From Sphingomonas sp. 67-36 (lineage in GTDB: Bacteria > Pseudomonadota > Alphaproteobacteria > Sphingomonadales > Sphingomonadaceae): a stretch of 64,000 bases of DNA. The translations under genes and the position numbers were made by a program. The notes beneath the pieces were generated by a model. That model searched no databases, had not been told where the DNA came from, and saw only the letters and a program-made list of their open reading frames with translations. Positions 3,283 to 21,743 of the stretch are shown here, piece by piece. The stretch is from positions 24,825 to 88,824 of the forward strand of contig MKSU01000004.1 in assembly GCA_001897375.1 (NCBI GenBank), written 5' to 3'. Each line of letters opens with the position of its first letter. Position 1 is the stretch's first letter.

Positions 3283-6200
3283 ATGTCACGCTATTTCATC
3301 GATCGGCCCATCTTCGCATGGGTCATCGCGATCATCCTGATGCTCGCGGGCGGGCTGGCGATCCGCTCGCTGCCGGTTGCGCAATTCCCGGAGATCGCGC
3401 CGCCGACGGTGTCGATCTCCGCCATGTATCCCGGCGCCGACGCCGAGACGCTGGAACGCACCACGACGCAGATCATCGAGCAGCAGCTCAAGGGCATCGA
3501 CCATCTGCGCTATTTCTCGTCCTCGTCCTCGTCGGCGGGGTCGGTGACGATCACGCTGACGTTCGAGCAGGGCACCAATCCGGACATCGCCCAGGTGCAG
3601 GTGCAGAACAAGCTTCAGGCCGCCACGCCGCTGCTCCCCCGCGAGGTGCAGCAGCAGGGCCTGCAGGTGCAGAAGTCGGCGGCCAATTTCCTTGTCATCA
3701 CCGGCCTCTATTCGAAGGACGGATCGCACAGCGCCACCGATCTGGCGGACATGGTCGTCTCGCGCTTCCAGGACCCGGTCAGCCGGGTGAACGGCGTGGG
3801 CGAGGTGCAGGTGTTCGGCGGCCAATATGCGATGCGTATCTGGGTCGATCCGCTGAAGCTCAACGCCTATCAGCTCACGATCGCGGACGTGACGGCGGCG
3901 ATCCAGGCGCAGAACGCGCAGGTTGCCGCCGGCCAGATCGGCGCGCAGCCGGCGCCGAAGGAGCAGATGCTCAACGCCACCGTCTCCGTCCAGTCGCGCC
4001 TCCAGACGCCGGAGCAGTTCGGCGCGATCCGCCTGAAGAACGGGACGGACGGCTCGGTCGTGCGCCTGTCCGACGTCGCGCGTACCGAACTGGGCGCGGA
4101 GAATTACGGCTTCGACACGCGTTACAACGGACAGCCGGCATCCGGCTTCGGCGTGAAGCTGGCGTCAGGTGCGAACGCGCTCGCCACCGTCGATGCGGTG
4201 AAGGCGCGCGTGGCGGAGATCGCCAAGGGGCTGCCGTCGGATGTCGCGGTGGTCTATCCTTACGATACCACGCCGTTCGTGCGCCTGTCGGTGAAGCAGG
4301 TGGTCGAGACGCTGTTCGAGGCGGTGGTGCTCGTCTTCCTCGTGATGTTCCTGTTCCTGCAGAACTGGCGGGCGACGCTGGTGCCGACGATCGCGGTGCC
4401 GGTCGTGCTGCTCGGCACCTTCGCGGTGATGGCGGTGGCCGGCTTCACGATCAACACGCTCACGCTGTTCGGCATGGTGCTGGCGATCGGCCTGCTGGTG
4501 GACGATGCGATCGTGGTGGTCGAGAATGTCGAGCGCCTGATCGTCACCGAAGGGCTGAGTCCGAAGGCCGCCGCGCGCAAGTCGATGGACGAGATCAGCG
4601 GCGCGCTGATCGGCATCGGCATGGTGCTGTCGGCGGTGTTCCTGCCGATGGCGTTCTTCGGCGGCTCGACGGGCGTGATCTATCGCCAGTTCTCGATCAC
4701 CATCGTTTCCGCGATGGTGCTGTCGGTGCTGGTCGCGCTGATCCTGACGCCCGCGCTCTGCTCCACATTGCTGCGGCCGCATGACCCGACGAAGCACGAC
4801 GGCGATGGCCCGCTGGAGCGCTTCTTCCGCTGGTTCAACGACAGGTTCGATCGCGGCCGCGAGAAATATGAGCAGGGCGTGCGCGGCACGACGCGCCACT
4901 GGAAGCGTTCGGTCGTCATCTATCTGGTGATCGTGCTCGGCATGGGGCTGCTGTTCTGGCGGATGCCCACCGCCTTCCTGCCCGATGAGGATCAGGGCGC
5001 GGTGATGGCGATGGTGCAGGGGCCGTCGGGCGCAACCACCGCGCGCACCGAGAAGGGGCTGGAACTGGTGCGCCGCCACTTCCTGAGCGATCCGGCGGTG
5101 GAGGCGGTGTTCACGATCAACGGCTTCAGCTTCGCGGGGCAGGGGCAGAACGCCGGCCTCGCCTTCATCCATCTGAAGCCGTGGGGGGATCGGCCGGGCG
5201 CGAAGAACAAGGCGCAGGCGGTCGCCGGCCGCGCGATGGGGGCCTTCGCGCAATATAAGGACGGCATGATCTTCGCGCTGGTGCCGCCGGCGGTGTCGGA
5301 ACTGGGCAATGCCACCGGCTTCGACCTCCAGCTCGTCGATACCGGCAATATCGGGCATGAGCGACTGACGCAGGCGCGCAACATGCTGCTCGGCATGGCC
5401 GGGCAGGACAAGCACCTCGCGCAGGTCCGCCCGATGAGTCTCGACGATGCGCCGCAGCTCAAGATCAATGTCGATCAGGACAAGGCGCGCGCGCTGGGCC
5501 TCGATCTGGACGCGATCAATTCGACCATCTCGACCGCGTGGGGCGGCGCCTATGTCAACGATTTCATCGATCGCGGGCGGGTGAAGCGCGTCTATGTCCA
5601 GGCCGACGAGCCATACCGGCTGCGCCCGGAGGATCTGGGCAGCTTCTACGTTCGCGGCGCGAGCGGGCAGATGGTGCCGTTCAGCGCCTTCTCCACGCTC
5701 GAATGGAGCAAGGGGCCGGTGCAACTCACCCGTTACAACGGCCTCCCGGCGACCGAAATTCAGGGCGGCGCAGCGCCGGGCGTCAGCACCGGCGACGCGA
5801 TGAAGGCGATGGAGGAGATTCAGGCCAAGCTGCCGCCTGGCACCGGGCTGGAATGGACCGGCCTCTCCTATGAGGAGCGCCTGTCGAGCGGGCAGGCGCC
5901 GGCGCTCTATGCGTTGTCGCTGCTGATCGTCTTCCTGTGCCTTGCCGCGCTGTACGAAAGCTGGTCGGTGCCGGTTTCGGTGATCCTGGTGGTGCCGCTC
6001 GGTATCGTCGGCGCGCTGCTCGCCGCGACGCTGACGGGGCTGAACAACGACATCTATCTTCAGGTCGGCCTCATCACGACGATCGGCGTCTCGGCCAAGA
6101 ACGCGATCCTCATCGTGGAATTCGCCGAGGAGCGGATCGCGGAGGGGATGCGGCCGTTCGACGCCGCGGTCGAGGCCGCCCGGCTGCGCCTGCGCCCGAT

Positions 6201-10117: not shown

Positions 10118-10240
10118 CGGGTTCCCTCCGCCCGGCGGAAGCCGGCTCGATGATGGAACACCGCCGCGCGGCCACGGTTCCGAAGCATGGCGCGACGGCG
10201 AGGGCCGTCCTATGCTGGCGGCCGACAATCACGGAGCGAC

Positions 10241-11863
10241 ATGATGACCGCGATCCGCCCGATCGACCGGCTCGACACGCATGAGGTGTTCAACCAGCCG
10301 CCGCCGCTCGAGGATGTGAACCTGTTCACCGGCGATCGCGCGCTGGGCGAGGCGGTGGCGAAGGCAGGCGGCGCGGCTCATGCGGGGCGACTCGCCGAAC
10401 TCGGCGCGCGTTGCGGATCGGCGGAGGTGATCGACTGGGGCGTCGAGGCCAATCGCAACGTGCCGGTGCTCGATACGTTCGACCGCTACGGCCGGCGCGT
10501 CGACGAGGTGCGCTTCCACCCCGCCTATCACGAGCTGATGCGGCTGGGGCTGGAGAGCGGCTTCGCCTCGGTCGCGTGGGACGGTACGGATACCGGGCAC
10601 GTCGCCCATGCGGCGATCCTCTATCTCACGGGACAGGCGGATTCGGGCACGAGCTGCCCGATGACGATGACCTATGCGGCGGTGCCCGCGCTCGCCGCCA
10701 CGCCGGAGGTCGCCGCGACATGGGTGCCGCGTATCACCGCCGGGCGCTACGACTCGGCGGCGCGGCCCGCGGCGGAGAAGGCCGGCGTCACGATCGGCAT
10801 GGCGATGACCGAGAAGCAGGGCGGATCGGACGTGCGCGCCAACACCACCCGCGCCGAGCCGACAGGCGAGGGCCATTGGTATCGCCTGACCGGCCACAAA
10901 TGGTTCTGCTCCGCGCCGATGTGCGACGCCTTCCTCACGCTCGCTTATGCCGAAGGCGGGCTGACCTGCTTCCTCGTCCCGCGCTGGCTGCCGGACGGGG
11001 AGCGCAATGCCGGTTTCCGCGTGATGCGGCTCAAGGACAAGATGGGCGACCGCTCCAATGCCTCGTCCGAAATCGAATATCACGGTGCGCTCGCCGAGCG
11101 GCTCGGGCCGGAGGGGCGCGGTGTCGCGACGATCATCCAGATGGTGCAGCACACCCGGCTCGATTGCGTGATCGGCTCCGCGCAGCAGATGCGCGGGGCG
11201 GTGGCGCAGGCGCTGTGGCATACCGCGCACCGCTCCGCCTTTCAGCGCCGGTTGATCGACCAGCCAGCGATGGCCGCCGTGCTCGCCGATCTCGCGGTGG
11301 AAAGCGAGGCGGCGGCGATGCTCGGCTTCCGGCTGGCGCAGGCGTTCGACGAGGATGATCCGGTCGCCCGGCTGCTCACCCCGCTCGCCAAATACTGGGT
11401 GTGCAAGCGTACGCCCGGCGTGGTCAACGAGGCGATGGAGTGCCACGGCGGCGCCGGCTATATCGAGACCGGCCCGATGCCGCGCCTGTTCCGCCAGTCG
11501 CCGCTCAATGCGATCTGGGAGGGATCGGGCAATGTCATCGCGCTGGATCTGCTGCGCGCGCTGGCCCGCGAGCCGGAGGGCGTCGAGGCATTACGAGACT
11601 TCCTCGCCGGCGCGCGGGGGCGGATCGGCGCCTATGACGCGTGGCTCGACGCGATCGACCTCAGGTCCGCGAACGAGTCCAACGCGCGGTTGCTGGTCGA
11701 GCGGCTGGCGCTCGCGGCGCAGGCGGCGGTGCTGATCGACTGGGACAGCCCGATCGCGGAGGCATTCTGCGCGCTGCGGTTCGGACAGCGCGGCTCCGCG
11801 TATGGCGCTCATGACGCCGCAATCGACACGCACGCGATCATCGAGCGCGCCGCCCCCGTTTGA
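10241..11863 (+). CDS. aidB: AidB-type acyl-CoA dehydrogenase family flavoprotein
   Basis: FAD protein of the acyl-CoA dehydrogenase fold related to the alkylation-response protein AidB. Hallmarks are the N-terminal THEVFNQPPPLEDVNLF, VRFHPAYHELM, GMAMTEKQGGSDVRANTT, GHKWFCSAPMCDAFL, MEcHGGaGYIE (residues about 405-415) and IWEGSGNV. The size of 540 residues matches AidB. The ATG at 10241 or 10244 follows GGAGCG. AidB proteins bind DNA and protect against alkylation, although some homologues in catabolic settings may act as isovaleryl-CoA-like dehydrogenases. Here it stands beside an oxidoreductase and the amine-utilisation island, so a metabolic role is possible. Confidence 0.9.
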   Translation: MMTAIRPIDRLDTHEVFNQPPPLEDVNLFTGDRALGEAVAKAGGAAHAGRLAELGARCGSAEVIDWGVEANRNVPVLDTFDRYGRRVDEVRFHPAYHELMRLGLESGFASVAWDGTDTGHVAHAAILYLTGQADSGTSCPMTMTYAAVPALAATPEVAATWVPRITAGRYDSAARPAAEKAGVTIGMAMTEKQGGSDVRANTTRAEPTGEGHWYRLTGHKWFCSAPMCDAFLTLAYAEGGLTCFLVPRWLPDGERNAGFRVMRLKDKMGDRSNASSEIEYHGALAERLGPEGRGVATIIQMVQHTRLDCVIGSAQQMRGAVAQALWHTAHRSAFQRRLIDQPAMAAVLADLAVESEAAAMLGFRLAQAFDEDDPVARLLTPLAKYWVCKRTPGVVNEAMECHGGAGYIETGPMPRLFRQSPLNAIWEGSGNVIALDLLRALAREPEGVEALRDFLAGARGRIGAYDAWLDAIDLRSANESNARLLVERLALAAQAAVLIDWDSPIAEAFCALRFGQRGSAYGAHDAAIDTHAIIERAAPV

Positions 11864-11872
11864 TACGGCCGG

Positions 11873-12559
11873 TCACTGCCTCTTGAAATCGCGCACCAGG
11901 GCTTTGAATGCCTCTATCGAGACTTCCATCAGGCAGCCCATTTGCGGCGTGAATGGCTTGTCGTGGCCGGCGAAGATCGTGGAACCTTCCATCGAATAGG
12001 AGATGAACAGGGTCAGCATCTCCCGCTCTTCTTCGGTCAGATCGGGGCGCATCTCCGCCACCACTTCCAGCAACGGTCGCCGGGCGCGAGCGTATAGCTC
12101 GTGCATCCGGTCGTAAACGAAGGGGTCGTGGTTCGACAAAGCCCAGAGCTCGGGGAACAGCCGCGTCGTCTTCCTGGTGGTGATGTCGTTGAGCACCAGC
12201 AGGCAATAGCGTTCCAGCCGCTGCTCCGGGCTGTGGCCGGGGCTGTGGACGATCGCGTCGAACTCCTGCTCGTAGCTGCGGATCACCGCGTCGAGCAACT
12301 CGCGCACCAGGTCCTCCCGCGTGCGATAGTGATAGGTGAGGTTGCCGAATTTCATCCCGCAGGCCGCCGCGACTCGGCGCATCGACATGGCGCGGTAACC
12401 CTCGTCGATCAGGATCGAAAGCGCGGCGAGCAGGATCATTTCGCGCGTCTCCCGGCCCTTCGAATAGCCGCCGTCGCGCTCGGGCACGATCAGGTCGGTA
12501 ATGAGGCCGGGGATATTATCAGATTGATTCACCGTAATTATCCTCTCTGTCTGTGCCAT
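11873..12559 (-). CDS. TetR family regulator, divergent from the aromatic amine dehydrogenase operon
   Basis: TetR-type regulator of 228 residues. The DNA-binding domain is at about residues 35-85 (MILLAALSILIDEGYRAMSMRRVAAACGMKFGNLTYHYRTREDL), and a helical effector domain follows. The N-terminus has a longer leader than usual (about 30 residues before the first helix). The ATG at 12559 has a weak ATAGGAA upstream. It faces aauB across 125 bases that contain a promoter and an 18-base direct repeat, so control of the amine operon by repression is likely. Its own 3' end lies 9 bases from the aidB stop, tail to tail. Confidence 0.88.
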   Translation of the reverse strand: MAQTERIITVNQSDNIPGLITDLIVPERDGGYSKGRETREMILLAALSILIDEGYRAMSMRRVAAACGMKFGNLTYHYRTREDLVRELLDAVIRSYEQEFDAIVHSPGHSPEQRLERYCLLVLNDITTRKTTRLFPELWALSNHDPFVYDRMHELYARARRPLLEVVAEMRPDLTEEEREMLTLFISYSMEGSTIFAGHDKPFTPQMGCLMEVSIEAFKALVRDFKRQ

Positions 12560-12582
12560 TTCCTATAACAAATAATCAAAAA

Positions 12583-12614
12583 TAGGTCACGAGACAAATT
12601 TAGGTCGATTGACA
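12583..12614. promoter_or_regulatory. Direct repeat TAGGTC-n4-..GACA (18-bp period), candidate operator for the amine operon
   Basis: TAGGTC occurs at 12583-12588 and 12601-12606, and GACA follows each at 12593-12596 and 12611-12614, giving two 14-base half-sites 18 bases apart. The second copy merges with the -35 hexamer of the predicted aauB promoter, a good position for a repressor. The likely ligand is the divergent TetR protein, by inference. Confidence 0.4.
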
Positions 12615-12638
12615 TGTTTACCCCTCATCCATCATGAT
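12609..12638 (+). promoter_or_regulatory. Predicted sigma-70-type promoter of the amine dehydrogenase operon
   Basis: A perfect -35 TTGACA at 12609-12614 is followed after 18 bases by a -10-like CATGAT at 12633-12638 (4 of 6 matches). The aauB start is 47 bases further on. It overlaps the direct repeat described at 12583-12614. Confidence 0.5.
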
Positions 12639-12684
12639 TCGGGGCAAGCCGCTTCGGATCGGCATTGTCAGGAGAGGGAAACGG

Positions 12685-13866
12685 ATGAGGTTGTTCGTCC
12701 GGCTGTTGTCGACCGCGCTCGGCCTCGCGGTGCTGCCTGCTCATGCCGCCACGCCGGCCGAGCCCTATGCCAAGCCGCTGCCGGAGGAAGCGATCCCGAG
12801 CGTCTCGGCGCTGCCGGGGCAATGGCCGAAAAGCTGGGTGCTCATCAACGATTTCCACTTCAACGCGATCGTCGACGGGCGGGTGGTGGTCGTCGACACC
12901 TCCTCGGCCAATCAGCCGCTGAAGGGGATCGTCCGGGCGGCGCAATTCGCCAACTCGCTCGTCTCGACGAAGCGCGGCGAGATACTGACCAGCGAGACCT
13001 TCTACTCCCGCCTGACGCGCGGTGAGCGCACCGACGCGATCACCATCTGGGACATGGCCGACCTGAAACCCAAGGGCGAGATCGTGCTGCCCGGCGGCAA
13101 GCGGCAGCTCTCCGTCACCTATCCGAACCTGTTCCAGTTCACCAATGGCGAGAAATGGGCGCTGGTCGCCAATTTCACCCCCGCCCAGTCGGTCACCGTG
13201 GTCGATCTGGACGGGCGCAAGGTGCTCAACGAGATCGACCTGCCGGGCTGCGCGCAAATCTATCCCACCGGCCAGCGCGGTTTCTCCAGCCTGTGCGCCG
13301 ACGGCTCGATCTTCAGCGCGACGCTCGACGATCAGGGCAAGGTGGCGACGTCCAGGACGATCAAGGCGGTGCAGGACATCGACAGGCAGCCGCTGTTCAG
13401 CGCGCCCGCGATGGTCGGCCGCACCGCATGGTTCGTCAGCCAGCACGGCATGTTGCAGGGTTTCGACCTGTCCGGCGATGTCGCGCGGCCGATCCCCGGC
13501 GCGTTCAGCGTCGGCACGGCCGAGGGCGCCGCGCCGGAATGGCGGCCGAGCGGGTGGCAAGTGATCAACGCCGATGCGGCCGGCCGGCTCTACGTGCTGA
13601 TGAATCCGGCCGGTAAGGAAGGCAGTCACAAGGACGGCGGCACCGAAGTGTGGGTGATCGATCCCGCGAAGAAGGCCCGTGTCGCGCGCTATCCGCTCAA
13701 GGCCCAGTCGGTCGCCGTAGCCGTCACGCGCGAGGATAGGCCGCATATGGTGCTGGCGCGCGCCGACGGCGTGATCGACGTCTATGACGCCGCCAGCGGC
13801 GCCTTCGTGCGCACGCTGGGGGCGACCGTGGCGTTCAACCCGATCGTCATCACCCCGGTGCAATGA
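12685..13866 (+). CDS. aauB: Aromatic amine dehydrogenase heavy (alpha) chain
   Basis: Large beta-propeller subunit of the periplasmic quinoprotein amine dehydrogenase; it forms an alpha2beta2 complex with the TTQ light chain and shapes the substrate channel. It has 393 residues with a signal peptide (LFVRLLSTALGLAVLPAHA). The mature part shows repeated blades, such as ITIWDMADLKPKGEIVLPGGKRQL, VTVVDLDGRKVLNEIDLPGCAQIYPTG and TEVWVIDPAKKARVARYPL. The start at 12685 follows AGGAGAGGG; the frame is open from 12634. It is followed by E, D and A genes in the order known for mau/aau clusters, with an ATGA overlap to the next gene. Identity as aau rather than mau rests on the light chain. Confidence 0.9.
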   Translation: MRLFVRLLSTALGLAVLPAHAATPAEPYAKPLPEEAIPSVSALPGQWPKSWVLINDFHFNAIVDGRVVVVDTSSANQPLKGIVRAAQFANSLVSTKRGEILTSETFYSRLTRGERTDAITIWDMADLKPKGEIVLPGGKRQLSVTYPNLFQFTNGEKWALVANFTPAQSVTVVDLDGRKVLNEIDLPGCAQIYPTGQRGFSSLCADGSIFSATLDDQGKVATSRTIKAVQDIDRQPLFSAPAMVGRTAWFVSQHGMLQGFDLSGDVARPIPGAFSVGTAEGAAPEWRPSGWQVINADAAGRLYVLMNPAGKEGSHKDGGTEVWVIDPAKKARVARYPLKAQSVAVAVTREDRPHMVLARADGVIDVYDAASGAFVRTLGATVAFNPIVITPVQ

Positions 13867-14360
13867 TGACGCCATTGGCCCTGTTCCTTGCGCTGGTGCT
13901 CGGCGTGTCCGCCGCGCACAAGGCGCATTCCCCGACGCGCCTCGGCGCCGCTGCGGCGCGACTGGCGGGAGTATCCTTGCCGGCCGGGCAGTTGCTGCTG
14001 GTGTTGACCGGCGCTGCGGAGGCGGTCGCCGCACTGTGCCTCGTCCTCCCCGTTGCCACGACGGCGGGCGCGACGACCGCCGCCGCTTTGTGGACCGCTT
14101 ATGCGCTGGCGCTGTGGCGCCGCCGAGGCGAGGTGCTCGATTGCGGCTGCGATCTCGTCGACCGGCCGCGCCCGATCGGGCCGGGACAGATATTGCGCGC
14201 GGCGCTGCTCGCCAGCCTCGCGCTTGCGCTCGCGTTGCTGCCCGCCGCCGCTTCGACCTTCTCGGCGGAAGCGTTGCTCGCCGCGCTTGGCCTTTTCGCA
14301 CTCTACCTCGGGGCGTCGGAAATTCTCGCCATTCCCCGCCCCGCCTGGAGGAAATCCTGA
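13863..14360 (+). CDS. aauE: Amine dehydrogenase maturation protein MauE/AauE (membrane)
   Basis: Integral membrane protein of 165 residues needed, by family knowledge, for light-chain processing, disulfide formation or translocation in methylamine dehydrogenase systems. Four to five hydrophobic segments are visible (PLALFLALVLGVSAAH, AGQLLLVLTGAAEAVAALCLVL, TTAAALWTAYALALW, ILRAALLASLALALALL, LLAALGLFALYLGASEIL). A conserved-type LDCGCDL with two cysteines follows the third segment, in keeping with a DoxX/VKOR-like redox role. It overlaps aauB by ATGA and aauD by one base (TGATG), so it is translationally coupled. Confidence 0.88.
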   Translation: MMTPLALFLALVLGVSAAHKAHSPTRLGAAAARLAGVSLPAGQLLLVLTGAAEAVAALCLVLPVATTAGATTAAALWTAYALALWRRRGEVLDCGCDLVDRPRPIGPGQILRAALLASLALALALLPAAASTFSAEALLAALGLFALYLGASEILAIPRPAWRKS

Positions 14361-14950
14361 TGCTGGTATCGCAATTGCTGTTGTGGACGGCGGTGATCGT
14401 CGAGGGCCTGCTGATCGCCGCGCTCGCGCGCCAGATCGGCATCCTGCACGAGCGCATCGCCCCGGCCGGCGCACTGACGCTGCACCAGAAGGTGACGGTG
14501 GGCGAGGTGGCGACGCCGATGACGGTCGTGACGATCGACGGCGCCCGGCTGGAGGTGGGCGGCAGGCGTGACGGGCGCAGCCAGCTCCTGTTCTTCGCCT
14601 CGCCCGATTGCCCGGTGTGCAAATCACTGCTGCCGGTGGTGCGCTCGGCCACGAAGGCGGAGGGGAACTGGCTGGACGTGGTGATCGCCGGAGACGGTGC
14701 GCAGCCGGCCTATCGCAAGCTCGCGAGCGAACACGGATTGGGCGGCCTGCCGCTGGTGCTGTCCGAGGCACTGGGCCGCGCGTTCGGCGTCTCTAAGCTG
14801 CCCTATGCGGTACTGCTGGACGAAGAGGGGCGGGTCGCCTCGCTCGGCCTCGTCAACAGCCGCGAGCATCTCGAAAGCCTGTTCGCTGCCAAGGAGCATG
14901 GGGTCGCCTCGATCCAGGACTTCCTTGCCCGTCGTCAGAAGGAAGCGTGA
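14360..14950 (+). CDS. aauD: Thioredoxin-like amine dehydrogenase maturation protein MauD/AauD
   Basis: Membrane-anchored thioredoxin-fold protein of 196 residues thought to form or isomerise the many disulfides of the TTQ light chain. An N-terminal transmembrane helix (SQLLLWTAVIVEGLLIAALA) is followed by a periplasmic thioredoxin domain with the redox motif C84-P-V-C87 in FFASPDCPVCKSLLP and the cis-Pro-like SKLPYAVLLDEEG. The ATG at 14360 is preceded by GGAGGAAA and overlaps the aauE stop. The light-chain gene starts 3 bases after its stop. The family match is clear. Confidence 0.92.
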   Translation: MLVSQLLLWTAVIVEGLLIAALARQIGILHERIAPAGALTLHQKVTVGEVATPMTVVTIDGARLEVGGRRDGRSQLLFFASPDCPVCKSLLPVVRSATKAEGNWLDVVIAGDGAQPAYRKLASEHGLGGLPLVLSEALGRAFGVSKLPYAVLLDEEGRVASLGLVNSREHLESLFAAKEHGVASIQDFLARRQKEA

Positions 14951-14953
14951 GCC

Positions 14954-15502
14954 ATGGCCGGTTTTGACAAGATAGCCGAACGCTTCACGCGCTCGATCGC
15001 GCGCGGCACCTCGCGGCGCAGCCTGCTGGCGACGCTGGGGATGGGGATGACCGGCGCAGCCGTCTTCCCGGTGCTGCCGGTGGCGCGCGCCTCCACCCAT
15101 CCGGGCGGCGCGGCGCATCCGCCGGTCACTTCTGGCATCGCGCAGGATCCGGGCGACCGCACGACCTGCGATTACTGGCGTTATTGCGCGATCGACGGCT
15201 TCCTGTGCACCTGCTGCGGCGGCACGGTGAACACCTGCCCGCCAGGGACGGAGATGTCGCCGATCACCTGGATCGGCACCTGCACGAACCCGGCCGACAA
15301 GCGCGCCTATATCATCAGCTACAACGATTGCTGCGGCGTCTCGTCGTGTGGCCAGTGCCTGTGCAACCGCAACGAGGGCGACCGGCCGCAGGTCCGCACG
15401 CAATCGAACAACGATTATAATTGGTGCCTCGGCACCGAGAGCAGCATCTACAATTGCTCGACGGCGGTGATCGTCGGCGTCGCGCTGGACCAGCCGCAGT
15501 GA
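14954..15502 (+). CDS. aauA: Aromatic amine dehydrogenase light (beta) chain, TTQ subunit
   Basis: Catalytic small subunit; two tryptophans become tryptophan tryptophylquinone (TTQ), which oxidatively deaminates primary amines in the periplasm. The 182-residue precursor has a twin-arginine signal (SRRSLLATLG). Cofactor tryptophans are W106 (PITWIGTC) and W157 (DYNWCLG), 51 residues apart as in methylamine dehydrogenase (57/108). The aspartates matching D32 and D76 of that enzyme are D81 and D125. The mature part has 14 cysteines. The segment IDGFLCTCCGGTVNTCPPG agrees with the Alcaligenes aromatic amine dehydrogenase, as I recall it, rather than the methylamine enzyme (GNICDCSGG). Phenylethylamine, tyramine or similar amines are therefore the likely substrates. 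Confidence 0.93.
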   Translation: MAGFDKIAERFTRSIARGTSRRSLLATLGMGMTGAAVFPVLPVARASTHPGGAAHPPVTSGIAQDPGDRTTCDYWRYCAIDGFLCTCCGGTVNTCPPGTEMSPITWIGTCTNPADKRAYIISYNDCCGVSSCGQCLCNRNEGDRPQVRTQSNNDYNWCLGTESSIYNCSTAVIVGVALDQPQ

Positions 15503-15948
15503 AGGCGCTGGCGATCCTTGCGCTGCTGACGCCCGCGACGGCGCTGGCGGCGGGACCGGACGGGGCGGCGATCTTCACCCGCTGCGCCGCCTGTCACACC
15601 AAAACCGGCGCCGGCGTGCCGGGCGCCTATCCGCCGCTCGGCGCCGATTTCCGCGCGCTTGCGACGAAGCCGGACGGGCGGCGTTATCTCGCGCTGGCGG
15701 TGCTGAAGGGCCTGTCCGGCCCCTTGACGGTGGAGGGCAAGACCTATCGCAACGTCATGCCGGCGCAGGGCGGGCTGGACGAGGCGGCCGTTGCGGCGGT
15801 GCTCAACCACGTCGGCACGGCGATCGCCAGGACGGGGCCGGCGTTCAAGCCGTTCACCCCGGCGGAGGTCGCCGGTTACAAGGCAGGCGCCGGATCGATG
15901 ACCGGCGCGGATGTCGCCAGGCTGCACGGCGCGGCGGACGGCAAATGA
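15499..15948 (+). CDS. Periplasmic single-haem cytochrome c of the amine operon (I)
   Basis: Small c-type cytochrome of 149 residues, probably accepting electrons from the TTQ enzyme. A cleavable signal (ALAILALLTPATALAAG) precedes one haem site, C29-A-A-C-H33; YRNVMPAQ supplies a likely axial methionine. The start is the GTG at 15499, which overlaps the aauA stop (GTGA). The frame is open further upstream, but that region is aauA coding sequence. In Alcaligenes the aau cluster also encodes a small cytochrome c, and azurin is a known acceptor of that enzyme; electron acceptance here is inferred from position. Confidence 0.87.
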   Translation: MKALAILALLTPATALAAGPDGAAIFTRCAACHTKTGAGVPGAYPPLGADFRALATKPDGRRYLALAVLKGLSGPLTVEGKTYRNVMPAQGGLDEAAVAAVLNHVGTAIARTGPAFKPFTPAEVAGYKAGAGSMTGADVARLHGAADGK

Positions 15949-16424
15949 AACCGGCGCTTGTCCTGCTGCTCTCCGGCCTTATTGCGGGCCTGATCGCGGC
16001 GGGCGGCGTGGCGCAACAGCCCGGTGCGATGCCCGGCGTTAGCAATCCGGCGCAGGCGCATGTCGATTACAAGCTGAAATGCCAGGGATGCCACCGCATC
16101 GACGGCAGCGGCGACGATTTCAGCAACCCGCCGATGCGGGGGACGCTCGCGCTTTTCCTGACGGTACCGGGCGGTCGCGAGTTCATCGGGCGAGTGCCGG
16201 GCGTGGCGACAGCCGATCTGGACGACGCGCGCCTCGCCAATCTCGTCAACTGGACGCTCTACACTTTCGATCCGCAGCACGTGCCGGCCAGCTTCCGCCC
16301 CTATACGGCGGCGGAGATCGGCGCGCTGCGACAAAACCCCCTCCGCCTTGAACGCGTCGAAACGAGAGCGCGTCTGGTGGCGGGCTTCATGCAGGCAGGA
16401 AAAGATCAGCACATCAAAAATTAG
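15945..16424 (+). CDS. Single-haem cytochrome c of the amine operon (II)
   Basis: Second c-type cytochrome, 159 residues, with an N-terminal hydrophobic signal or anchor (LVLLLSGLIAGLIAAGGVA) and one haem site C46-Q-G-C-H50 followed by RIDGSGDD. M-R-G at about residue 64 or a later methionine could be the sixth ligand. It overlaps the first cytochrome gene by ATGA. The C-terminal 40 residues are basic and lack a clear motif. Together the two cytochromes could carry electrons from the dehydrogenase to the oxidase. Neither has the two haem sites of MauG. Confidence 0.85.
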   Translation: MKPALVLLLSGLIAGLIAAGGVAQQPGAMPGVSNPAQAHVDYKLKCQGCHRIDGSGDDFSNPPMRGTLALFLTVPGGREFIGRVPGVATADLDDARLANLVNWTLYTFDPQHVPASFRPYTAAEIGALRQNPLRLERVETRARLVAGFMQAGKDQHIKN

Positions 16425-16439
16425 GGGAGGTCTCGGGCA

Positions 16440-18661
16440 ATGAAGGATCTTTTGTTGTTGCGGGCGAGCGGGGCGGCACTGGCCGTCGCCGTCGCCCTCG
16501 TGGCGCCGCCGGTTCTGGCGCAGGCGGCGGACACGCCGGAAGCCAATGCGCCGGGCGAAATCATCGTCACGGCGACCAAGCGTTCGGAAAGCCTCCAGTC
16601 GGTGCCGATCTCGGTCTCGGCAATCGGCGGGGACGATCTTTCCAAATCGCGCACCACCAGCGTCGACGATCTGACCAGCAAGGTCGCCAACCTCCAGATG
16701 ACCGGCATCGTCGGCGACAACACGCCGATCTTCAGCCTGCGCGGCGTGTCGATGTCGGACTACAGCCTCAACCAGTCCAGCCCGGTCGCGACCTATTATG
16801 ACGAGGTCTACAAGGGCAATTTCGCCTTCCTCGGCGTGGCCATGTACGATCTGGAGCGGGTGGAGGTGCTGCGCGGGCCGCAGGGCACGCTCTATGGCAA
16901 GAACACCACCGGCGGCGCGGTCAACATCATCAGCCGTGACGCCGCGCTCGGCGAGACCGGCGGCTACATCAACGCGGGCTATGGCAATTACAACCGCGTC
17001 GACGTGAACGGCGCGATCAACCTGGCGCTGGGCGACAAGGCCGCGCTGCGCGTCGCGGGCACCTACAGCCATGCCGACGGTGGTTCAGGAACGTCCTGCC
17101 CGGCATGCCCGATCTCGCCGAAACGCGCGAGTTCGCCTTCCGCGCCACGCTGCACTGGGAGCCGACCGACCGGTTGAAGCTGGTGCTGCGCGGCTCGGTC
17201 AGCGAGCAGACGCCGCACAATTACGGCATCTATGCGCAGAACGCGGATCAGACGCGCGTCGACGGCCTCGACCGCTATCACATCGCCTCCGACATCGCGA
17301 CGCGCCGTATCGCCCGCACGCAATCGGTGGCGTTGACCGCCAACTACGAACTGACCGATGCGCTGACGCTGACCAGCATCACTTCCTATGACCACGGCAC
17401 CCTGTTCTTCACCGAGGACACGGACGGCCAGGCGAACAAGACGCTGGAAATCCCCTATGGCGACCGCGCCAGCCAGTTCGCGCAGGACCTGCGCCTGACC
17501 AGCAACCTGTCCGGGCCGTTCGACTTCATCTTCGGCCTCTATTTCAATCGCGAGAAGGTGTTCAACACCACCTCCTTCCAGATATTCAATGATGTCGATC
17601 TCAATGAGGACGGCCGGATCGACGCCGCCGATTGCGCCGCGGGGGTGGAGGACGGCACCTTCGTCGCCTGCAAGGTGAAGAACCGCTTCGATCAGGTGAA
17701 AAAGAGCTTCGCGGCCTATACCGACCTCAAGTTCAGGGTGAGCGACGCGATCACCTTGCGCGGCGGCCTGCGCTACACCCACGATATCGGGCGGCAGACC
17801 GGCTTCCGGTCCGACGCGTTCGGGGTGGACGATGTGCTGGTGGCGAATTTGATCCCGCTCACCTCCGCCTCGTTCAAGACGGACAATCTCTCCGGCAAGA
17901 TCGGGCTGGACTACAAGCTGGCCGACGGCAACCTGCTCTATGCCAGCATCAGCCGGGGCTATCGCGCGCCGAGCTTCAACGCGCAGGCGTTCTTCCAGCC
18001 GGACGAAGTTTCCGTCGCGCGGGCGGAGAAGGTCACTTCCTATGAGATCGGCGCCAAGACCCGCATGTTCGACCGGCGCGTCACGCTGAATCTCGCCGCC
18101 TTCTACTACGATTACCGCAACCAGCAGTTCATCAACGTCGATCCGGCCACCGCAGCGCAGACATTGCTCAACATCCCCAAGTCGCGCATCTTCGGCGGCG
18201 AGGCCGAGCTGACCGCGCGCATCGTGGACGGCTTCCAGCTACATGGCGGACTGGGCCTGCTGTCGACCAAGATCATCGAGGGCACAGTCAGCGGCGCGGA
18301 CGTCGCCGGGCACAAGCTGGCCAACGCGCCGTCCTTCACCTTCAACATCGGGCCGGACATCACGCTGGCGCGCGGCAGCTTCGGCACGATCAGCCTGCAT
18401 CCAGCGCTGTCCTATCAGTCCAGCCAGTATTTCGAGGTGATCAACGAGCCGATCCTGCAGCAGAAGGGCTATGCGCTGCTCGACGCGCATCTCGATTATG
18501 AAAGCGCGGATGGGCACGTCACCGCATCGGCCTGGGTGAAGAATGCTGCGCAGCAATTCTACTTCACCTCACGGGTCGATCTGCTCGCCGGCTTCGGCTT
18601 CATCTACAACCATATCGGCAACCCGCGTACCTATGGCATCACGCTGGGCTACAAGATCTGA
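16440..18661 (+). pseudogene. TonB-dependent receptor of the amine operon, interrupted by a one-base frameshift
   Basis: TonB-dependent outer-membrane receptor of about 740 residues if the frame is repaired. Part one (16440 to about 17080) encodes the signal peptide, TonB box-like EIIVTATKRSESLQSVP and the plug with VEVLRGPQGTLYGKNTTGGAVNIISR. Part two (from about 17082 to 18661) encodes the barrel and ends in the typical GITLGYKI. The join falls at 17079-17083 in GACGGTGGTTC: adding one base after GACGG restores a continuous TYSHADG-WFRNVLPGMPD. The ribosome binding site GGGGAGG overlaps the preceding cytochrome stop. Both halves keep good codon use and motifs, so a recent inactivation, an assembly error or a phase-variable event are all possible. 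Confidence 0.85.
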
Positions 18662-18681
18662 CGAACGCGCTGGAGAGGATA

Positions 18682-20085
18682 ATGACCGACTATCGGATGC
18701 TGATCGGTGGCAAGCTCGTCGACGCGGGCGAGCATATGGAGGTCGTCAACCCGGCGACGGGGGAGGCCTTCGCCGCCGTGCCCCGCGCCAGCGCCGCCGA
18801 TGCGGATGCCGCGATCGTCGCCGCCCGCGCCGCGCAGCCGGCATGGGCCGCGCGGCCGATCGCGGAGCGCCGCGCGGCGATCGTCGCGCTGGCGGACGCG
18901 ATCGCGGCGAACGGCGACGAACTCGCCCGCCTGCTGACGATGGAGCAGGGCAAGCCGCTCGCCGAGGCGAAGGGCGAGATCGCGTGGACCGAGGGCTATC
19001 TGCGCCACTATGCCACGCTGGAACTGCCGGATCGCATCATTCAGGATGACGAGAACGGCTACATCGCGGTGCGCCACCAGCCGCTCGGCGTGGTGGTGGG
19101 GATCATCGCTTGGAACTTCCCGCTGCTGGTCGCCTGCTGGAAGATCGGGCCGGCTGTGCTCGCGGGCAATGCGATCGTGCTCAAGCCCGCGCCTACGACG
19201 CCGGTCACCGCGCTTCGCCTGGGCGAACTGGCGAAGGACATCTTCCCGGCGGGTGTGGTCAACATCATCACCGACGCCAACGATCTCGGGCCGCACCTGA
19301 CGGCGCATCCCGATGTCGCCAAGGTCGGCTTCACCGGCTCCACCGCCACCGGCAAGAGGATCGCTGCCAGCAGCGCCGATACGCTCAAGCGCATCACGCT
19401 GGAACTGGGCGGCAATGACGCCGCGATCGTGCTGAACGACGTGGACGTGCGCGAGACGGCGCGTGCGATCTTCGACAGCGCCTTCCTCAACTGCGGGCAG
19501 GTGTGCCTCGCGGTGAAGCGCGCCTATGTCCACGCCGACATCTACGACGCGATGTGCGCCGAACTGGCGCGGCTGGCGGAGGAAGCGGTGGTCGGCGACG
19601 GGCTGGAGCAGGGCGCGCGGATCGGCCCGATCCAGAACCGGATGCAGTTCGAGAAGGTGAAGGGCTTCCTCGACGCCGCGCGTGCGGAGGGCAATATCAT
19701 CGCCGGCGGCAAGGCGATGGAGCGCGCCGGCTATTTCATCGAGCCGACCATCGTCCGCGACGTGACCGACGGCGCGAAGATCGTCGACGAGGAGCAGTTC
19801 GGCCCGATCCTGCCGGTGATCCGCTTCGATGACGTGGAGGATGTGATCGCGCGCGCCAACGCCTCCGATTACGGCCTTGGCGGATCGGTGTGGAGCAAGG
19901 ATATCGACCGCGCCACCGATATCGCCGGGCGGATCGACGCCGGGCAGGTATGGGTCAACCAGCATGTCGCGATCGGCCCGCACATCCCGATGGCCGGCTT
20001 CAAGCAATCCGGCCTCGGCGCGGAGCAGTCGGTCGAGGGACTGGCCGAATATACGCAGCTCAAGGTGGTGAACGTCAAACGATGA
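18682..20085 (+). CDS. NAD(P)-dependent aldehyde dehydrogenase
   Basis: Aldehyde dehydrogenase superfamily member of 467 residues, expected to oxidise the aldehyde produced by the amine dehydrogenase to the acid. The catalytic cysteine is C275 in FLNCGQVCLAVKR and the general base E241 in LELGGND. The oxyanion asparagine is in IAWNFPLLVACWK, and the nucleotide fold includes VGFTGSTATGK. GGAGAGGATA precedes the ATG. It lies 20 bases behind the TonB receptor and overlaps the ligase gene by ATGA. The cytoplasmic location means the aldehyde must cross the inner membrane. The cofactor preference is not certain. Confidence 0.92.
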   Translation: MTDYRMLIGGKLVDAGEHMEVVNPATGEAFAAVPRASAADADAAIVAARAAQPAWAARPIAERRAAIVALADAIAANGDELARLLTMEQGKPLAEAKGEIAWTEGYLRHYATLELPDRIIQDDENGYIAVRHQPLGVVVGIIAWNFPLLVACWKIGPAVLAGNAIVLKPAPTTPVTALRLGELAKDIFPAGVVNIITDANDLGPHLTAHPDVAKVGFTGSTATGKRIAASSADTLKRITLELGGNDAAIVLNDVDVRETARAIFDSAFLNCGQVCLAVKRAYVHADIYDAMCAELARLAEEAVVGDGLEQGARIGPIQNRMQFEKVKGFLDAARAEGNIIAGGKAMERAGYFIEPTIVRDVTDGAKIVDEEQFGPILPVIRFDDVEDVIARANASDYGLGGSVWSKDIDRATDIAGRIDAGQVWVNQHVAIGPHIPMAGFKQSGLGAEQSVEGLAEYTQLKVVNVKR

Positions 20086-21743
20086 ACGGACTTTCCATCG
20101 CCAGCGGGCCGACCGATACCCCGCTGCTGGAGATCACCATCGGCGAGGCGTTGCGCCATGCTGCGGAGCGGTGGGGCGACGATCTGGCGCTCGTCTCGCG
20201 TCATCAGGCGATCCGCTGGACATGGCGCGAGTTCGACGCAGAGGTCGATCGTGTCGCCACCGGCCTGCTGGCGCGCGGCGTGGGGAAGGGCGACCGGGTC
20301 GGCATCTGGGCGCCGAATTGCGCCGAATGGGCGGTGATCCAGTTCGCCACCGCGCGGATCGGCGCGATCCTCGTCAACATCAACCCGGCCTATCGCGTGA
20401 CGGAGGTCGAATATGCGCTGAACAAGGTCGGCTGCGCGATGCTGGTGACGGCGGCCCGTTTCAAGAGCAGCGACTATCTCGCCATGCTACGCGAGATCTG
20501 GCCGGCGAAGGTGCCGGGGCTGCGGCTGATCGTTACGCTCGGCAGCGACGCGCACGACGGCTTCTTGCCGTGGGGCGAGCTTCGCGTCGCGCCCGATGCG
20601 CCTGCGCTGACGGCGGCGGAGACCGCGCTCGATCCGAATGACGCGATCAACATCCAGTTCACAAGCGGCACCACCGGCCTGCCGAAGGGCGCGACGCTCA
20701 CCCATCGCAACATCCTCAACAACGGCTATTTCACCGCGCGCACCCTGCACCTGACGCCCGCGGACCGCATCTGCGTGCCGGTGCCGCTGTATCATTGCTT
20801 CGGCATGGTGCTGGGCAATCTGGCGGCGGTGACGAGCGGCGCGGCGCTGGTCTATCCGGCGGAAAGCTTCGATCCCGTCCGCGTGCTGGAGGCGGTGGCG
20901 GCGGAGCGCTGCACCGCGCTCTACGGCGTGCCGACGATGTTCATCACCATCCTCAACCACTCCATTCTGGCGGTCACCGACACCTCGTCGCTGCGCACAG
21001 GCATCCTTGCCGGCTCGCCGTGCCCGCTCGCCACGATGCTCGAGGTGATGGAGCGCCTCAACATGCGCGAGGTGACGATCGGTTACGGCATGACCGAGAC
21101 CAGCCCGCTCACCACCCAGACCGCCACCGACGATCCGATCGAGGAGCGCGTCGGCTCGGTCGGCCGCGTGCATCCCCATGCGCAGGCGAAGATCGTCGGT
21201 CCGAACGGCGCGACCCTGCCTTATGGCGAGCAGGGTGAATATTGCTCGCGCGGCTATGCGGTGATGCGCGGCTATTGGGACGATCCCGAAAAGACCGCCG
21301 AGGCGATCGATGCCGACGGCTGGATGCATTCCGGCGACCTCGCAACGATGGACGAGCGCGGCTACGTCCGTATCACCGGCCGTATCAAGGACATGATCAT
21401 TCGTGGCGGCGAGAACATCTATCCGCGCGAGATCGAGGAGTTCCTGCTCGGCCATGATGCGGTCGCCGACGCGCAGGTATTCGGCGTGGCGGACGAGACC
21501 TATGGCGAGGAGGTCTGCGCCTGGATCATCCCGCGCCCCGATGCGACGCTGTCCGCCGAGGAAGTGCTGGCGCACTGCAAGGGCCGCATCGCCCACTACA
21601 AGGTGCCGCGCTACATCCGCATCGTCGAGGCGTTCGCGATGACCGTCACCGGCAAGGCGCAGAAGTTCGAGATGCGCCGCGTCATGGAAGCGGAGCTGGA
21701 AGCGCGGGACTTGCGGACCGAACGTCAGCTATCGCGGCCGTAG
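20082..21743 (+). CDS. AMP-dependent acyl-CoA synthetase/ligase
   Basis: ANL-superfamily CoA ligase of 553 residues that would activate a carboxylic acid through an acyl-AMP. The P-loop is INIQFTSGTTGLPKGATLTH, followed by YGMTETSPLT, the hinge YVRITGRIKDMIIRGGENIYP and the catalytic lysine region TVTGKAQKFEMRR. It resembles medium- and long-chain or aryl-alkanoate ligases of the FadD type rather than the shorter PaaK phenylacetate ligases. The ATG overlaps the aldehyde dehydrogenase stop. In context it would activate the acid derived from the amine; it is the last gene of the operon. Confidence 0.92.
   Translation: MNGLSIASGPTDTPLLEITIGEALRHAAERWGDDLALVSRHQAIRWTWREFDAEVDRVATGLLARGVGKGDRVGIWAPNCAEWAVIQFATARIGAILVNINPAYRVTEVEYALNKVGCAMLVTAARFKSSDYLAMLREIWPAKVPGLRLIVTLGSDAHDGFLPWGELRVAPDAPALTAAETALDPNDAINIQFTSGTTGLPKGATLTHRNILNNGYFTARTLHLTPADRICVPVPLYHCFGMVLGNLAAVTSGAALVYPAESFDPVRVLEAVAAERCTALYGVPTMFITILNHSILAVTDTSSLRTGILAGSPCPLATMLEVMERLNMREVTIGYGMTETSPLTTQTATDDPIEERVGSVGRVHPHAQAKIVGPNGATLPYGEQGEYCSRGYAVMRGYWDDPEKTAEAIDADGWMHSGDLATMDERGYVRITGRIKDMIIRGGENIYPREIEEFLLGHDAVADAQVFGVADETYGEEVCAWIIPRPDATLSAEEVLAHCKGRIAHYKVPRYIRIVEAFAMTVTGKAQKFEMRRVMEAELEARDLRTERQLSRP

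Follow-up and report, generated by a model that had tools for sequence, protein, structure and literature searches.

Gene content of the locus

The window analysed here is a stretch of 64,000 nucleotides from Sphingomonas sp. 67-36 (contig MKSU01000004.1, positions 24,825 to 88,824; coordinates below are those of the window), whose genome amounts to 4.0 Mb in 32 contigs. Its subject is a gene island for an amine dehydrogenase of the kind that carries the cofactor tryptophan tryptophylquinone (TTQ); it was described beforehand as an aromatic amine dehydrogenase (aau) cluster. At 11873-21743, nine co-directional genes lie behind a divergent TetR gene. At a probability of roughly 80%, we regard the island as a catabolic operon under TetR control that serves a primary amine, in which uptake through a TonB-dependent receptor would lead to TTQ-dependent deamination and on to an acyl-coenzyme A (CoA), with the small cytochrome c that we call C2 as an accessory. 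Gene identities, order, conservation, TTQ residues and co-occurrence were computed directly; from them we infer transport, export, the electron route, the CoA product and regulation. The features, with expectation values (E), are as follows.

11873-12559, minus strand: TetR/BetI-type regulator, divergent (PF00440, E 8.9e-10; PF13977, E 2.5e-8)
12560-12633, no strand: intergenic region between the divergent genes
12634-13866, plus strand: aauB, TTQ amine dehydrogenase heavy chain (PF06433, E 2.5e-41)
13863-14360, plus strand: mauE-like membrane protein (PF07291, E 4.8e-11)
14360-14950, plus strand: mauD-like thiol-disulfide protein (TIGR02661, E 6.9e-50, 169 bits, under the curated cut-off of 188.6)
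14954-15502, plus strand: aauA, TTQ light chain with twin-arginine leader (PF02975, E 7e-49; aromatic amine dehydrogenase 2agl, E 1.8e-44)
15499-15948, plus strand: cytochrome C1, c552-like, with axial-Met loop (PF00034; 1c52, E 5.2e-25)
15945-16424, plus strand: cytochrome C2, c552-like, without axial-Met loop, TTQ-linked (CxxCH; profile against 1c52, E 4e-24)
16440-17177, plus strand: TonB-dependent receptor, plug part, frame stops early (PF07715, E 3.1e-17)
17105-18661, plus strand: TonB-dependent receptor, barrel part, other frame (PF00593, E 1.4e-44)
18682-20085, plus strand: aldehyde dehydrogenase (ALDH; PRK13473, 441 bits, and StyD, 419 bits, both under cut-off; best PDB chain 8yen, E 1e-144)
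20082-21743, plus strand: adenosine monophosphate (AMP)-forming acyl-CoA ligase (NF009233/PRK12583 fatty acid CoA ligase, 792 bits, cut-off 832)

Every gene named in the preliminary description is present by its Pfam or NCBIfam match, in the order and place given there, and the close packing that it reported is confirmed, adjacent operon genes overlapping by at most 4 bp or being separated by gaps of 3-20 bp. The divergent regulator stands ahead of the operon as described, with its PF00440 match. The word 'complete' holds in that all the named genes were found, but the TonB receptor gene is split over two frames. Lying between the divergent genes, the intergenic region is the likely site of both promoters and of the TetR operator, and aauB may start at an alternative in-frame ATG at 12685, ahead of a signal-like stretch. 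The mauE-like protein had no match in NCBIfam. The ALDH, in which no leader was seen by eye, is taken as cytoplasmic.

Conservation of the gene order

Two collections of loci were compared with the island. The named set comprises at least 80 loci with a light chain from a genome scan (544 relatives were seen), and a set of 158 loci was gathered by similarity to the window light chain or by PF02975. The latter holds duplicates, nine loci from genomes of the family being contigs also held as named loci, and these were kept in the counts of open reading frame (ORF) clustering, gene-model search, full order, TTQ residues and cytochrome columns.

The preliminary description had proposed a search of sphingomonad genomes for the same gene order, and it is found there. 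Under a rule that asks for AauB, MauD, AauA, C2, TonB, ALDH and CoA ligase in this order, with MauE and C1 optional, the full arrangement occurs in 34 of 80 named loci, 33 of which also carry the divergent TetR gene, and in 14 of the 50 loci taken from the 38 further family genomes that are TTQ-positive, seven of these 14 being the same contigs as named loci. Among the 46 named loci that fall outside the rule, 22 end near the light chain (less than 6.5 kb downstream or less than 3.2 kb upstream of it) and 24 are without a gene in range or are reordered. Genera with the full order include Sphingomonas, Novosphingobium, Sphingobium, Sphingopyxis, Sphingosinicella and Erythrobacter, and the nearest named light chain among the matches listed, from Sphingomonas lycopersici, is 90% identical to that of the window. 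The gene arrangement is not due to chance and is kept as a unit across sphingomonads.

When 2047 ORFs from 130 loci were clustered, the ten largest families were island genes or antisense ORFs lying over them, the eleventh was another TonB family (25 loci), and no further family with most of its members outside the interval reached more than 10 loci. The island borders drawn in the preliminary description are therefore good ones. An acyl-CoA dehydrogenase gene at 10187-11863 was considered as an operon member and rejected, with no tblastn match at E 1e-8 in the 130 loci.

The light chain is present in 39 of 397 family genomes and in 13 of 398 genomes of the phylum (two of the 13 being fragmentary), so TTQ amine dehydrogenases, rare according to the preliminary description, are better called uncommon than very rare. 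The layout is a variant of the aau type, common in genomes. That it might already be documented widely had been named beforehand as a point that would count against its interest: it is indeed widespread in genomes, but among open-licence papers none describing the island was found.

The TTQ enzyme

The closest PDB chain to aauB is that of an aromatic amine dehydrogenase (AADH; 2h3x, E 2.5e-49), the best methylamine dehydrogenase (MADH) being 4y5r at E 1.6e-37, and the aauA light chain is marginally nearer AADH than MADH (154.9 versus 152.0 bits). Judged by similarity, the enzyme is of the aau type, nearer AADH than MADH, clearly by its heavy chain and barely by its light chain. The window light chain carries W109, W160 and D128 (numbering from the 2agl_D alignment), which we take to be the two TTQ tryptophans and the catalytic Asp. 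W109 is present in 155 of 155 aligned rows, W160 in 153 of 153 covering rows and D128 in 154 of 154 covering rows. The TTQ residues are intact, and TTQ formation is predicted from them. A twin-arginine motif (RR), sought with a lenient pattern, occurs in the light chains of all 80 named relatives.

In a light-chain tree of low resolution, built on 118 columns, with many weakly supported forks and with warnings for long branches and for the AADH row, the window protein falls outside the clade with the AADH of Alcaligenes faecalis, which includes loci from Burkholderia, Cupriavidus, Pseudomonas and Paracoccus. Left out of the tree set were nine presumed duplicates (L058, L067, L070-L073, L077, L080 and L187) and L204.

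Position 172 of the light chain (AADH numbering) is Ser in 134 of 153 covering rows, as against Thr in the AADH and MADH references; it is Ser in 63 of 63 covering island rows and Thr in 9 of 12 rows of the AADH set. Phe169 of the A. faecalis AADH was considered as a substrate marker and rejected: it is uninformative because the position is Tyr in 152 of 153 covering rows, AADH-clade rows included. Two further arrangements may be recorded. Four loci from metagenome-assembled genomes (MAGs) of Gammaproteobacteria (L149, L155, L158 and L160) show a tandem duplication of heavy and light chains, aauB-aauA-aauB-mauD-aauA-C2. A plasmid of Thermomicrobium roseum (L204) has, near a long protein annotated as MauE, four matches that resemble the light chain, and searches of this locus for C2, MauG and the heavy chain gave no match.

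Two cytochromes c beside the light chain

C1 aligns with Thermus c552 (1c52) over residues 21-129 of its 149 and, in the window copy, has both a CxxCH motif and an axial Met. The Met, presumably the axial heme ligand, recurs in 99 of 102 aligned C1 sequences; two C1 from one contig (L072 and L133), without an in-frame CxxCH, were left out of the column counts. The pairing of CxxCH and axial Met that marks a c552 carrier is thus found in C1 and is missing from C2. C2 had no match in Pfam or NCBIfam. It has one CxxCH, conserved in 153 of 153 sequences, and its profile matches 1c52 in two blocks that flank a skipped Met-bearing stretch, corresponding to residues 51-73 of 2fwl_A. An LN-type motif stands at a distance of 50-51 from the heme His in 142 of the 144 C2 with the motif (of 153), and at 67-69 in the 73 C1 with the motif (of 102). 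Of the columns with Met beyond the CxxCH of C2, the commonest has this residue in 88 of 153 sequences and Leu in 52, and every His or Lys column stays below half. Because the Met loop is missing, with no conserved Met, His or Lys as a substitute, the sixth heme site of C2 is probably open or unusual. An AlphaFold model of C2 (predicted local distance difference test score, pLDDT, 89) has c552 as its best fold match at a modest E of 0.013, and the fold search returned no match at E 0.001. MauG has two c-type hemes and belongs to the CCP_MauG family; C2, with one CxxCH, a c552-like fold and no Pfam match, is by these features not a MauG, and could at most work like one.

Models of C1, C2, MauG, MauF, MauJ and amicyanin were built from members of the 158-locus set. 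The C2 model finds its gene near the light chain in 153 of the 158 loci, and as an ORF separate from C1 in 152 of the 157 non-window loci. C2 is missing from five loci: four of the mau type, which have MauG, and a distant one from Thermomicrobium, which has neither protein. C2 was found in none of eight mau loci compared, six of them Paracoccus plasmids, at E up to 10, and all eight carry MauG. In a Sphaerotilus locus outside the 158, C1 and C2 are present and MauG had no match. Across genomes, in a scan that scored up to nine candidates per genome, strong C2 matches (at least 144 bits) occur at 48 places in 37 of 377 family genomes, and all 37 are TTQ-positive; the best match in any non-TTQ family genome reaches 41 bits. 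Two TTQ-positive genomes, G379 and G380, are not listed among the 377 and were apparently not scored. A light chain adjoins 47 of the 48 strong places. The remaining one (G296:C9) was considered as a C2 without a light chain and set aside, since a break in the contig would account for it: at its end the contig has a C1 fragment, and C2, TonB, ALDH and ligase come next.

MauG completes TTQ by a six-electron oxidation, with a five-coordinate, peroxide-reactive heme and a second heme (PMC6405878), and a mono-heme stand-in is therefore a reasonable hypothesis. It may be that C2 is a mono-heme replacement of MauG, a c552-type cytochrome whose loss of the Met loop leaves the heme iron with an open or weakly held sixth site and which, perhaps with C1 as the second heme, carries out the last oxidation of the two light-chain tryptophans to TTQ in aau-type enzymes. 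We regard this suggestion as tentative and rather improbable; if true, there would be two unrelated TTQ finishing systems. MauG was above the cut-off in none of the 397 family genomes, and 18 of the 39 TTQ genomes have no match to the MauG model, none of those 18 having CCP_MauG PF03150. Electron transfer explains the co-occurrence of C2 equally well, because amicyanin is also missing. C1 and C2 might instead be successive electron carriers that replace azurin or amicyanin, with TTQ finished by a distant di-heme enzyme, and to this we would give about even odds. The C2-bearing loci lack both amicyanin and MauG, so C2 could replace either. MauG-model matches under the cut-off (E up to 1e-3) occur in 21 of 39 TTQ genomes and in 59 of 358 others, which leaves room for a distant enzyme, and the host has one di-heme protein of this kind (contig C3, L162 1048-2067; the island is on C4), its only CCP_MauG-family match, which is nearest MbnH (265 bits MbnH, 155 bits MauG, both under cut-off). 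A weak MauG-like match of 45 bits in one island locus points the same way. Two carriers in series with a distant finishing enzyme fit less well with the 18 genomes just mentioned, and with the want of a conserved axial Met in C2, which is unusual in a carrier.

The weak match lies in L075 at 3739-5148, on the same strand as the light chain and 4.4 kb upstream of it; the threshold for counting MauG at a locus was 150 bits, which excludes it.

The TonB receptor and the proposed pathway

The receptor gene of the window contains both a plug (PF07715) and a barrel (PF00593) domain, each in its own frame. It is a single ORF in 64 of 71 related loci, so intact copies exist, and it was called split in seven, two of which come from the same contig, so that some splits may be errors. 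The break in the window copy could be decay or a sequencing or draft error. Its link to the enzyme extends to other lineages: in Alteromonas, Paraglaciecola, Sessilibacter and several MAGs of Alphaproteobacteria (loci such as L143, L147, L152, L154, L135 and L140) a TonB gene is found ahead of aauB, and the association has therefore been kept through rearrangement. Uptake of an aromatic compound by a sphingomonad TonB receptor, DdvT, has been published (PMC6874591).

Several observations weigh against the reading of the island as a TonB-fed amine operon. At about 17,080 the receptor gene differs by one base in length from each of four aligned relatives. Among the 153 non-reference rows of the light-chain tree, a same-strand TonB gene lies downstream in 63 and upstream in 26, and 64 have neither within the ranges used, although in some of these, such as L085, the gene was missed because the contig is cut or because ORFs overlap; in the clade of the A. 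faecalis AADH there is no TonB gene for 11 of the 13 non-reference rows. The host genome has 73 PF00593 matches, so a single adjacent receptor is weak evidence, and it is conserved order together with persistence after rearrangement that argues for the link. The light chain was found in none of 10 listed genomes of the same genus, and the operon is therefore accessory. Lastly, the blue-copper family PF00127 had no match in the host genome, which makes the cytochromes likely acceptors, but PF00127 does not cover every cupredoxin.

The frame split and the absence of the light chain from those 10 genomes could also mean that the operon is decaying in this strain, as a broken receptor gene in an accessory cluster. 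We think this unlikely: the other operon genes are open and the TTQ residues intact, a single-base draft error would give an identical picture, and the seven split calls, with their repeated contig, may themselves include errors.

With the island taken as a TetR-controlled amine operon, the receptor would bring the amine, or a larger amine-holding compound, across the outer membrane. In the periplasm AauBA, matured with the help of MauE and MauD and with a light chain bearing a twin-arginine translocation leader, would convert the amine to an aldehyde and ammonia, and the electrons would exit via the c552-like C1. The aldehyde would cross the inner membrane and be oxidized by the ALDH, and the acid would then be activated to an acyl-CoA by the ligase. 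C2 would be a dedicated accessory of this TTQ type, for electron transfer or for TTQ finishing. The preliminary description called the path self-contained, which is too strong, as none of the genes encodes an inner-membrane carrier and the receptor frame is interrupted in the window copy.

Conserved in bacteria of soil and water, such an operon would give sphingomonads a widespread periplasmic amine pathway that has an outer-membrane receptor of its own, and it raises the question of how aau-type enzymes make TTQ where many genomes have no MauG-like protein. C2 is the most valuable lead, being one small gene that stands beside 153 of 158 light chains and is absent from the eight MauG-bearing mau loci.

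The substrate

From the gene content we lean slightly towards an alkyl amine as the substrate, with an arylalkylamine close behind. An arylalkylamine was the original proposal, in which phenylethylamine, tyramine or tryptamine would feed an aryl-acetyl-CoA to ring degradation; it is unsupported by the present comparisons, and we now hold it to be doubtful. In its favour are the aau type of the enzyme, with AADH as its nearest PDB relative, and the resemblance of the ALDH to phenylacetaldehyde dehydrogenases (StyD, 419 bits against a cut-off of 850; PDB 4o5h second). PaaA/PaaC matches above cut-off, moreover, are enriched in island genomes, with 9 of 17 (chosen by hand) against 40 of 380 (Fisher p 3.7e-5, kinship ignored). 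Against it, the light chain lies outside the A. faecalis AADH clade in the tree, and the ligase comes closest to the fatty-acid CoA ligase subfamily PRK12583, whose cut-off it narrowly misses. PaaA/PaaC had no match in the host genome, so phenylacetyl-CoA would lack its usual aerobic outlet there, and in 7 of 16 other island genomes there was none above cut-off, two of those (G127 and G296) having weak matches; PaaA/PaaC as a universal outlet was accordingly rejected.

A short or medium alkyl amine, possibly branched, whose acyl-CoA would enter beta-oxidation, seems to us possible, at somewhat less than even odds. The affinity of the ligase with fatty-acid enzymes and the lack of PaaA/PaaC in the host fit it, and so do genes at related loci: L125 has an additional enzyme resembling MbcS and acetate ligases (493 bits, under cut-off), and L068, L103 and L107 continue with an enoyl-CoA hydratase-like gene, the L103 copy being the one scanned. 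Yet the specificity of ligase and ALDH is not fixed by sequence, and while the best PDB chain for the ligase is a fatty-acyl-CoA synthase, the second is a feruloyl-CoA synthetase. The Paa enrichment points the opposite way, as does a related clade that adjoins Rieske genes, and also catechol genes on plasmid pNL2 of Novosphingobium aromaticivorans.

At L140, positions 13489-20111, genes for a reductase, Rieske dioxygenase alpha and beta subunits, a CoA ligase, a thiolase-like protein and a short-chain dehydrogenase/reductase (SDR) lie 3' of TonB-AauBEDA-ALDH. Saro_1685, an 'Amine dehydrogenase' seen in the N. aromaticivorans periplasm (PMC3608174), was considered as proof of expression and set aside, its identity not being matched; the TTQ light chain found for this organism lies on pNL2 (SARO_RS19980).

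Comparison with known systems

The mau cluster of Paracoccus denitrificans shares with the island the heavy and light chains, MauE, MauD, the TTQ light chain and a similar leader. It differs in having MauF, amicyanin, MauJ, MauG and a NapG/NapH-annotated pair, none of which the island has, whereas C1, C2, TonB, ALDH and CoA ligase are on the side of the island. Of the loci from which the models were drawn, three of four mau loci have MauG, MauF, MauJ and amicyanin, the fourth being without amicyanin, and none of the four proteins was found at the window locus.

Closer are the aau clusters on plasmids of Pseudomonas aeruginosa RW109 and Cupriavidus HN-2, which have the BEDA order, a TTQ light chain and two cytochromes c after aauA, with no MauF, MauJ or MauG nearby, and in HN-2 an ALDH next; unlike the island, they have no annotated TonB receptor or CoA ligase. 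The preliminary description knew of no mau or aau cluster linked to a TonB receptor and a CoA ligase, and in this the island does differ from mau and from the TonB-less aau of these Pseudomonas and Cupriavidus plasmids. The A. faecalis AADH (2agl), compared by enzyme and not by gene cluster, belongs to a separate light-chain clade; its aau cluster has reportedly been published with cytochrome-like genes.

For single components, Thermus thermophilus cytochrome c552 (1c52) resembles both cytochromes, C1 in a single alignment and C2 in two blocks and as best fold, but has the Met-bearing stretch that C2 lacks. DdvT, likened by role and not by sequence, is likewise a sphingomonad TonB receptor serving catabolism, but its substrate is a lignin biphenyl (PMC6874591). 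On pNL2 of N. aromaticivorans (L166 1-14516), a TonB-linked TTQ amine dehydrogenase with C2 and a light chain 53% identical to that of the window has its TonB gene upstream, unlike the island, and Rieske, amidase and catechol ortho-cleavage genes alongside, a neighbourhood whose gene content suggests an aromatic amine pathway.

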